From Rhodospirillaceae bacterium (GTDB lineage Bacteria > Pseudomonadota > Alphaproteobacteria > Rhodospirillales > JABHCV01): 64,000 bases of DNA. The stretch is from NCBI GenBank assembly GCA_018662005.1, contig JABJHA010000004.1, positions 248,001 to 312,000 on the forward strand. The letters run 5' to 3'. Position numbers and translations under genes: made by a program. Below the pieces are notes generated by a model that was not told the origin of the DNA, did no database searches, and saw only the letters and a program-made list of their open reading frames with translations. Positions 41,837-44,932 of this stretch are shown piece after piece; the stretch's first letter is position 1, and every line of letters begins with the position of its first letter.

Positions 41837-42556
41837 GTGGGGAATGCCCGAAAAAAGGTGTGCGAAGATCATCACAGCATCGATATTGATGGTCGTGAGA
41901 TACCACTGATCGTGCGGCGTCACCCACGCGCCCGACGGATCATCCTGCGCGTCAATACGGCGGGCGAAGGGGCGGTGGTGACGATCCCCGCCCACGCGGA
42001 CCCGGCAGATGGCATTGAGATGGCGCGCCGCCAGTCGGCGTGGTTGGGTCAGCGTCTAGATGACATGGGCGCACGCACCGAATTTAACGATGGCGTCCGG
42101 GTCCCCTATCGGGGCCAGGACTATACCTTGCGTCATGATCCGGCAGCCCGTGGCACGGTCTGGGTCGAAGGTGATGAAATCCACGTTACCGGCGACGCCC
42201 GCCACATGACCCGGCGTTTGAGCGACTGGATGAAGAAGCAGGCGCGAGCCGAAATCGCGCCGCTTGCCCATACCAAGGCGGCCAGCATCGGTCACACCCC
42301 GTCGCGCATTACCATCCGTGATACCCGCACCCGTTGGGGTTCGTGTTCCCATAAAGGCGGCCTGTCTTTCAGTTGGCGTCTGGTGATGGCGCCCAACGAT
42401 GTTCTTGATTACGTCGTCGCCCATGAAGTCGCCCATCTGGAACACATGAACCACAGTCCTGCATTTTGGCAAACCGTCGATACGCTGACCGCCAACGCCA
42501 GCCATGGACGGAACTGGTTGAGCGACAACGGCAGCGCCCTGCACCGGATTGGTTAA
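41837..42556 (+). CDS. YgjP-like M48-type metallopeptidase (DUF45)
   Basis: A 239-residue protein with a C-terminal zinc peptidase-like domain. Features are TRWGSCSHKGGLSFSW, then DYVVAHEVAHLEHMNHS with the HExxH motif (about residues 196-200) and the third ligand region a short way on. The N-terminal half has the usual VRRHPRARRIILRV opening. YgjP homologues occur in bacteria with little functional data; roles in protein or DNA-crosslink turnover have been proposed for the broader SprT/M48-like group. It uses a GTG start at 41837. Confidence 0.88.
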   Translation: MGNARKKVCEDHHSIDIDGREIPLIVRRHPRARRIILRVNTAGEGAVVTIPAHADPADGIEMARRQSAWLGQRLDDMGARTEFNDGVRVPYRGQDYTLRHDPAARGTVWVEGDEIHVTGDARHMTRRLSDWMKKQARAEIAPLAHTKAASIGHTPSRITIRDTRTRWGSCSHKGGLSFSWRLVMAPNDVLDYVVAHEVAHLEHMNHSPAFWQTVDTLTANASHGRNWLSDNGSALHRIG

Positions 42557-42559
42557 GTG

Positions 42560-42979
42560 ATGAAACAGGCTCAACACAAAATCGTTATGGCGACTGAAGG
42601 ACAGGGACTGTATGAATTTACCGATCAGGTGGTGAACTGGGTATCCGGACAGGGAATTGCAGAGGGACTGTTGACGGTTTTTTGCACCCACACATCGGCC
42701 AGCCTGACCATCCAGGAAAATGCCGACAGTGACGTGCAGCGCGATCTGCTGACTTTCTTTGCCAACCTTGCGCCAGAAGACCCGTCCCTGTATCGCCATA
42801 CCATGGAAGGGTCCGACGACATGCCGGCACACATCAAAAGCGCCCTTAGTGATGTGTCGTTGTCGATCCCCGTTCAGGGTGGCCGCCCGACACTTGGCAC
42901 CTGGCAAGGGATTTATTTATTTGAACATCGAACCCGCCCTCACAGCCGCACTGTGATTCTTCAACTAATGGGAAACTGA
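42560..42979 (+). CDS. YjbQ-family (UPF0047) protein
   Basis: A 139-residue protein of the YjbQ/UPF0047 family, small homotrimeric enzymes reported to have weak thiamine-phosphate synthase activity. Conserved landmarks are FCTHTSASLTIQENAD, the DDMPAHIKSAL segment and LGTWQGIYLFEHR with histidines and Glu that would form a metal site. GTG 42557 precedes ATG 42560; both give the same frame. It starts directly after the YgjP-like stop, so cotranscription is likely. Confidence 0.9.
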   Translation: MKQAQHKIVMATEGQGLYEFTDQVVNWVSGQGIAEGLLTVFCTHTSASLTIQENADSDVQRDLLTFFANLAPEDPSLYRHTMEGSDDMPAHIKSALSDVSLSIPVQGGRPTLGTWQGIYLFEHRTRPHSRTVILQLMGN

Positions 42980-43688: not shown

Positions 43689-43739
43689 AATTTCAGGATG
43701 AACTGTTACAGTCTCCCTTGCCCATTAAAGGAGAATTCA

Positions 43740-44039
43740 ATGCGCTTTTTTATCATTGTCGGTTTGCTTTTGTCGCTGATGTCGTTTGAAGACGCCCGCT
43801 CCGAGACGCTACTGCAGTGCATGGAAAAATGTATTAGTTACGAAGGCGGCAATTCCGACACCAACAAGGCGACCTGTAAAACCCGCTGCGGTTCTGCGAT
43901 GATCAAACAAAAGCCCGCCGGAATGCGTGATTGCAAGGGCGAGGTAAAAGCCTGTCGGTCTAAATGCGGCAAGGAAAAAATCGGCCAGCCGAGCGCTTGT
44001 CACAAGGAGTGCAAGGCGCTGCAAATGTCGTGTATTTAG
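43740..44039 (+). CDS. Small secreted protein with tandem CX3C helical-hairpin cysteine pattern
   Basis: A 99-residue protein with a signal peptide of about 20 residues (MRFFIIVGLLLSLMSF then ARSE). I do not recognise it as a named family. The mature part has ten cysteines in a regular layout. First comes CX3C-X14-CX3C (CMEKC and CKTRC). Then comes CX6CX3C-X10-CX3CX6C (CRSKC and CHKEC), which is symmetrical about its centre. These patterns suggest two disulfide-locked helical hairpins, recalling the twin CX3C design of small Tim proteins and alpha-hairpinins. ATG 43740 has AAAGGAGA upstream. It sits convergent with serB. It is likely periplasmic. Confidence 0.78.
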   Translation: MRFFIIVGLLLSLMSFEDARSETLLQCMEKCISYEGGNSDTNKATCKTRCGSAMIKQKPAGMRDCKGEVKACRSKCGKEKIGQPSACHKECKALQMSCI

Positions 44040-44932
44040 CTCGTGACAAATTGCGACTTGTGAAACCCCTGAATATATAAAAGCGCGCTCAAGTCGCCGT
44101 GATCGATGAAGGCATCGGCGACTTCTTTTAGGCTCTCCGAGGCGTGAATGGCGACGCCAAGACCTGCCGCCTGTATCATCATGATGTCGTTGGCCCCGTC
44201 ACCAACGGCCAGCACCTCGGCCAGTTGCAGGCCCTTTTGATCACATAATTCGTTTAGGATCGTCAGCTTTGCGATTCGGCCCAGCACCGGTTCTTCAACG
44301 GCGCCGGTTAATATGCCATCTTCAAAGATCAATTCGTTTCCCTTGTCATCATCAAAGCCGAGCCGTTCCGAAATACGGCTGGTGAAGAAACTGAACCCCC
44401 CTGACACCAGAATGCAGTATGCCCCGTGATGGGACATGGTTTGAACCAGTGTGCGCGCCCCTGCCTTAATGGTAAGACGATCCCGGTAGACGCTTTCAAG
44501 CAGATGCTGATCCATTCCCTTCATCAGCAACATTCGTTTGCGCAGGGCTTCTGAAAAATTGATCTCGCCTTTGATCACGGCGGTGGTGATTTCCCTGATT
44601 TGTGGGCCGACACCGAATGCGTCGCCCAGTTCGTCAATACATTCCTGATCTATGACCGTTGAGTCCATGTCGGAAATAAGAAGTTTTTTTCGACGGCCCC
44701 GAGTGGCGGTACAGGCAGCATCAATGGCTGTTCCTGACAAAGACTCACGAACCTGTTGGGTAACCTCAAGCGAGGTCAGGGGGGAATCCATGAAAAGATC
44801 ACAAGCCTCGTCCTCGGCCAGCCAATGGGGATCGACAGGGATTTCCAGACGCTGGCAAACACGCTCGATATGCGCGGTCTTAAGCGGATTGGTTTCGGCA
44901 TTGCCGATCAGGGTGAGGGCGTGGGAAGTCAT
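44036..44932 (-). CDS. serB: Phosphoserine phosphatase
   Basis: Final step of serine biosynthesis, dephosphorylating O-phosphoserine. The 298-residue protein has an N-terminal ACT-like regulatory region, then the HAD motif DMDSTVIDQECIDEL, the substrate-binding EALRKRMLLMKG region, VSGGFSFFTSRI and AVGDGANDIMMIQAAGLGVA. The length fits the SerB form with an N-terminal extension. The 3' end overlaps that of the cysteine-rich secreted protein by 4 bases. No local serine-pathway partner is visible. Confidence 0.95.
   Translation of the reverse strand: MTSHALTLIGNAETNPLKTAHIERVCQRLEIPVDPHWLAEDEACDLFMDSPLTSLEVTQQVRESLSGTAIDAACTATRGRRKKLLISDMDSTVIDQECIDELGDAFGVGPQIREITTAVIKGEINFSEALRKRMLLMKGMDQHLLESVYRDRLTIKAGARTLVQTMSHHGAYCILVSGGFSFFTSRISERLGFDDDKGNELIFEDGILTGAVEEPVLGRIAKLTILNELCDQKGLQLAEVLAVGDGANDIMMIQAAGLGVAIHASESLKEVADAFIDHGDLSALLYIQGFHKSQFVTS

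Follow-up and report, generated by a model that had tools for sequence, protein, structure and literature searches.

The plant alpha-hairpinins are helix-loop-helix peptides held by two disulfides, and the portion of PMC11591084 used here defines for them a 4C motif (CX3C-X4-20-CX3C) and a 6C motif (CX3CX3C-X4-20-CX3CX3C), with peptides of the 4C type inhibiting trypsin or killing microbes. The small Tim proteins of mitochondria carry twin CX3C motifs 11-16 residues apart, according to the section of PMC5584982 consulted. Their compartment, the intermembrane space, is treated as equivalent to the periplasm in the cited part of PMC3097184, where the periplasmic chaperone Skp is described as phylogenetically unrelated to the small Tims. 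In Csp3, the CXXXC of one helix gives Cu(I) thiolates, and exported Csps carry Tat signals (PMC5171941, in part).

Here, we describe a small bacterial gene whose product recalls each of these systems. It lies in a window of 64,000 nucleotides from a Rhodospirillaceae bacterium (contig JABJHA010000004.1), "window" meaning the whole stretch of DNA that was analysed. Searches of open-access literature listed no paper on a bacterial twin-CX3C or hairpinin family, or on this cysteine plan.

The gene and its product

The open reading frame encodes 99 amino acids followed by a TAG stop (Table 1). Its translation carries ten cysteines, at residues 27, 31, 46, 50, 65, 72, 76, 87, 91, and 98, and matches exactly the pattern CX3C-X14-CX3C-X14-CX6CX3C-X10-CX3CX6C after a Sec-type signal; the last two cysteine stretches, CX6CX3C and CX3CX6C, mirror each other. 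Signal cleavage, placed by eye, would follow ARS. When the ten-cysteine pattern was relaxed and looked for in all six reading frames, the window gave one occurrence and 60 shuffled windows gave none; these were plain base shuffles and thus a weak control. The part of the chain that starts at the first core cysteine has a net charge (K+R-D-E) of +8, and inspection of the protein revealed no catalytic-looking set of residues.

Table 1. Coordinates of the gene, its parts, and its neighbours in the window
Feature	Position	Strand	Basis or remark
YgjP-like metallopeptidase and UPF0047 genes	41837..42979		Pfam; next to the HAD hydrolase ORF, on its upstream side
HAD-type hydrolase ORF	end 43688		upstream of the family gene
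Shine-Dalgarno-like AAGGAG	43728..43733	+	read from sequence; ATG 6 nt further on
Family ORF	43740..44039	+	translation
Sec-type signal peptide, residues 1-21	43740..43802	+	hydrophobic stretch; fast divergence
Hairpin 1, C27X3C31-X14-C46X3C50	43818..43889	+	predicted helices 24-35, 40-55; profile matches
Linker, variable, 14 residues here (family: 10-22)	43890..43931	+	homologue comparison
Hairpin 2, C65X6C72X3C76-X10-C87X3C91X6C98	43932..44033	+	predicted helices 65-75, 86-97
TAG stop	44037..44039	+	4-base overlap with the convergent HAD-type ORF
HAD-type phosphatase ORF, presumably SerB-like	44036..44932	opposite	convergent with the family gene

Extent of the family

With the single protein as query, 21 of 199 relatives gave a match at E≤0.01, its own genome included; the three weakest of the 22 loci so obtained (L019-L021) were unrelated frames and were dropped. 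A profile built from 18 members (A1) matched 50/317 genomes of the order, and a wider one built from 49 members (A5) matched 51/314. Outside the order the picture is sparse. Profile A1 matched one of 384 other genomes of a class sample and none of 397 other genomes of a phylum sample, and A5 matched three of 269 other class-sample genomes at E≤0.01, all weakly, with one holding up; these class and phylum samples also include a few genomes of the order. The A1 class-sample match (G376, E 0.006, one stop) was rejected as it lacks the cysteine plan, and two of the weak A5 matches (L115, L116), in which the plan was not seen, were likewise set aside.

The family is patchy but lasting within one order. 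Among 51 carriers, 49 have a single match; the exceptions are G001, which has two copies, and a genome in which a broken gene gives two pieces. A peptide-pattern scan for close relatives returned 17 loci, all in metagenome-assembled genomes labelled Rhodospirillaceae, Rhodospirillales, Alphaproteobacteria, or Proteobacteria.

Against a near relative from Rhodospirillaceae bacterium NIOZ-UU42 (L053, 93% identical), residues 22-99 show a dN of 0.005 and a dS of 0.34, so that the mature part is strongly constrained in this one pair; residues 1-21, with a dN of 0.17 and a dS of 0.65 in the same pair, show that the signal part drifts.

The cysteine frame

Deduplication of profile matches on 108 loci left 52, of which 49 are intact, distinct homologues. 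The three rows set aside were two pieces of the frame-broken L013 and the broken L087, which contains unread bases; both loci are family genes with broken frames, through decay or assembly error. One genome matched by A5 (G602) is outside the set of 49.

The preliminary description had reported the ten-cysteine pattern, and had named homologues with other spacing as grounds for refutation. The observation stands: the pattern is exact in the translated gene, and 48 of the 49 homologues fit C3C-(11-18)-C3C-(10-22)-C6C3C-(5-10)-C3C6C. Those 48 do not differ in their X3 and X6 spacings; all variation falls in the two loops and the linker. Loop 1 has 11 residues in 32 of them, 14 in 11, 13 in 4, and 18 in 1, while loop 2 has 5 residues in 31, 6 in 12, 10 in 4, and 9 in 1; the length of 10 is seen only in the window protein, L002, L022, and L003, all of the window's genus. 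The 49th homologue (L004) has a shorter loop and no counterparts of C76 and C87, the seventh and eighth cysteines. This joint loss, one event in one sequence, fits a putative innermost disulfide between the two.

The same description had called the protein secreted, and a hydrophobic stretch does precede the core, within 70 open-frame residues, in all 49 intact members. A Tat-like motif was found in one of the 49 (L049), where it is located before the likely start. The charge is also widely shared, with a net value of at least +4 over the same part of the chain in 46/48; the two homologues that are not basic are L047 (+1) and L017 (-2). In the eight members of genus g58 (8/49) the signal is followed by an arm bearing HFHG. 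The arm reads HxxGxxHFHGEQL in L018, L070-L075, and L079, the last with a related or repeated form, and may be a metal-binding arm.

Predicted structure

AlphaFold2 placed helices at residues 24-35, 40-55, 65-75, and 86-97 of the whole window protein (mean pLDDT 67, pTM 0.30), and at residues 2-15, 17-28, 40-50, and 56-67 of the mature form of a homologue, L059 (mean pLDDT 75, pTM 0.40, with pLDDT about 85 over the second hairpin). Four helices, one on either side of each loop, are thus predicted with moderate confidence, in line with the helix-turn-helix likeness suggested earlier. Judging from their spacing, the cysteines would be placed i,i+4 or i,i+7,i+11 within or next to the helices, roughly on one face of each.

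Fold searches gave little to add to this. Foldseek returned no significant match for either model; for the mature model, Csp3 was the sole match with E≤10 (5fig, E 9.7, TM-score 0.25, not significant). A second fold search listed three chains, none at Z≥2. For the vicilin leader 7uv1 the figures were a Foldseek E of 7.7, a Z of 3.4, and an rmsd of 8.7, which we do not count as proof.

Likeness to named families

Searched against a PDB set, the family profiles matched the vicilin hairpins 7uv2 (E 8.6e-5 with A1, 6.7e-5 with A5) and 7uv4 (6.2e-4 and 1.8e-4); these matches cover hairpin 1 alone. Tim10 was marginal with A1 over the same hairpin (E 0.17 and 0.2), and A5 found no Tim in the set at E≤10. 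When the targets were shuffled with their cysteines fixed (1000 shuffles in each of six tests), none or one equalled or beat the real vicilin and Tim10 segments; the Tim10 segment outscored 1000 of 1000 shuffles with A1 and 999 of 1000 with A5. The real segments therefore share more than spacing with the family. Because such shuffles do not keep helical periodicity, the likeness may nonetheless have arisen by convergence, with a small amphipathic hairpin as the common outcome.

Nine Pfam families were matched by the 49 members at E≤1, all weakly. Vicilin_N matched three members (best E 0.0027) and zf-Tim10_DDP one (E 0.0037; an earlier scan of 18 members also gave one, at 0.0011). None of the other seven was better than 0.02, and they include CMIP6 (0.021), Thionin (0.07, two members), Hefutoxin (0.075), and Vanabin-2 (0.83). 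NCBIfam gave one chance-level match to the 49 (YPYG_dom, 0.092), and PHROGs gave none at E≤0.1 to 18 members. These scans leave the family without a name in Pfam, NCBIfam, or PHROGs. Two further points of the preliminary description, the absence of a matching bacterial family name and the resemblance to alpha-hairpinins and small Tims, agree with the scans, the profile matches, and the shuffle tests; its interpretation as a whole is partly supported, and the roles it suggested (small chaperone, inhibitor, or metal binder) are taken up below among the less likely readings.

Genomic neighbourhood

Neighbouring genes were taken from a home-made, greedy choice of ORFs (those with cross-locus matches or longer than 250 aa) at loci of differing length, and most were named by eye. 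On this basis no operon partner recurs family-wide; the neighbours vary by lineage. In the window, the gene sits between the two HAD-type ORFs of Table 1, and the YgjP-like and UPF0047 genes lie beyond the upstream one. In 16 of 51 places an unnamed secreted protein adjoins the family gene on the opposite strand; 13 of these arrangements, all from genera g58 and g29, are convergent, and three are divergent. One example is L072:4357-5415, with 15 further loci alongside it; a Pfam scan of one example gave no match, and the copies in L058 and L059 have long middles rich in Ala, Ser, and Thr. A HisKA-type kinase gene lies just upstream in four loci (L061, L065, L067, L100), and five other loci (L036, L062, L063, L064, L094) have a response-regulator gene just downstream. 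These recurring neighbours seem to reflect common ancestry of the loci and not a pathway.

A stand-alone six-cysteine hairpin

One ORF from another order of the same class deserves a separate mention. L114:1450-1656 (genome G413) encodes 68 residues, matches A5 at E 3.9e-4, and has a signal-like start followed by CX6CX3C-X5-CX3CX6C, with no first hairpin. In Pfam it has an AtDEF-like match below threshold (E 0.0032). A search of 25 further genomes for relatives gave one weak match (G202, E 0.099), which is not a convincing gene. This lone hairpin, known from one sequence, hints that the six-cysteine unit is a reusable module.

What the protein may do

Our favoured reading, held tentatively and at a little under an even chance, is that of a periplasmic, DsbA-oxidised, non-enzymatic basic scaffold whose disulfide hairpins bind an acidic partner at the envelope. 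The protein would be exported by Sec to the periplasm and its signal cleaved, whereupon DsbA and DsbB would oxidise the ten cysteines to give two antiparallel helical hairpins joined by the variable linker. Disulfides are the likely state because the N-termini are of the export type and the genome itself (G000) has DsbA and DsbB matches above cut-off. The pairing would be 27-50 and 31-46 in hairpin 1, and 65-98, 72-91, and 76-87 in hairpin 2, an arrangement that we consider very probable. The outcome would be a very stable small scaffold without catalysis, whose mostly basic body could hold that partner. We favour a binding scaffold because 46 of 48 members are basic, no catalytic-looking residues are apparent, and no partner gene recurs; this last point fits a stand-alone protein. 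The binding role itself, read from charge and stability alone, is a doubtful proposition, and any ligand (lipid head groups, a periplasmic protein, or an acidic polymer) is a guess.

It is unlikely that the protein is instead a periplasmic carrier or store of metal, with Cu(I) or Zn bound by cysteines on helices that face each other and with further sites added by histidine arms. The HFHG-bearing arm of all eight g58 members, repeated in L079, keeps this idea alive. Also on its side are the non-significant Csp3 match, sole of its kind for the mature model, and the Cu(I) thiolates that CXXXC of one helix gives in Csp3 (PMC5171941, in part). Yet the arm is confined to 8/49, the loss of two cysteines together fits a pair, and passage by Sec past DsbA would favour disulfides. 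Exported Csps use Tat signals, in the portion of PMC5171941 cited, whereas the one Tat-like motif in 49 members precedes the likely start. No metal gene was recognised among the recurring neighbours, which were mostly named by eye. The Csp-type Pfam family, which we take to be DUF326, is absent from the nine families matched by the 49 members at E≤1.

Less likely again is a small periplasmic chaperone acting like the small Tims to escort hydrophobic or outer-membrane proteins. The twin CX3C spacing of hairpin 1 (11-14 in 47/48) falls inside the small-Tim range (PMC5584982, in part), the compartments are held to be equivalent (PMC3097184, in part), and the Tim10 segment, marginal with A1, beats all or all but one of its cysteine-fixed shuffles. 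In a scan of 45 genomes, 28 of them carriers, zf-Tim10_DDP had its best match in a family gene (G176, E 0.029). None of the 45 had a match over the Pfam cut-off, however, and matches below the cut-off turned up in 7 of 14 control genomes as well. The single member matched by zf-Tim10_DDP among 49, and the silence of the wider profile on Tims, also count against this role. Replacement of Skp by the family was rejected: OmpH/Skp was found in 44/44 genomes (23 carriers, 21 non-carriers), so nothing has been replaced. A core chaperone is also hard to reconcile with a gene found in 51 of 314 genomes.

A defence or inhibitor peptide, in the sense of a basic protein of hairpinin-like build that is exported to inhibit proteases or harm competitors, is improbable. 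The precedent is there in the 4C-motif plant peptides (PMC11591084, in part), and 46/48 members are clearly basic, but the mature part is strongly conserved in the one pair measured, 49 of 51 carriers have a single match, and no recurring immunity-like partner gene was noticed among the neighbours. Plasmids searched with the window protein, and PHROGs searched with 18 members, gave no match. Finally, an alphaproteobacterial periplasmic chaperone related by descent to the mitochondrial small Tims through its first hairpin is very improbable; if this were true, the chaperones of the intermembrane space would have begun as Dsb-oxidised periplasmic hairpins.

Comparison with described systems

Set against the alpha-hairpinins and the vicilin leaders (7uv1, 7uv2, 7uv4; Vicilin_N), hairpin 1 follows the 4C motif in all 48 members, with a loop of 11-18, and with the vicilin hairpins residues other than cysteine align too (L.QCM..C...EG...K..C..RC). 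Hairpin 2, in contrast, departs from the alpha-hairpinin 6C motif, being CX6CX3C-X5-10-CX3CX6C in 48/48, and unlike the vicilins the family is bacterial, has this second hairpin, and is without the vicilin domain. With the small Tims it shares an equivalent compartment and, in 47 of 48 members, a twin CX3C whose spacing lies within 11-16; it differs in having two different hairpins per chain and a Sec-type signal, and in missing the Pfam cut-off. Like Csp1 and Csp3 its members are bacterial, small, and, by prediction, helical, with cysteines at i,i+4 along the helices, but here the cysteines form mirror-image, even-numbered sets, the signal is Sec-like rather than Tat, and there is no sequence match.

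What results is a well-bounded, unnamed bacterial family in whose cysteine plan a 4C hairpin precedes a 6C hairpin of mirror-image layout. Its members form a clean set of small proteins that are candidate substrates of the Dsb system, and they allow the twin-CX3C hairpin of mitochondria and plants to be compared with a bacterial one.
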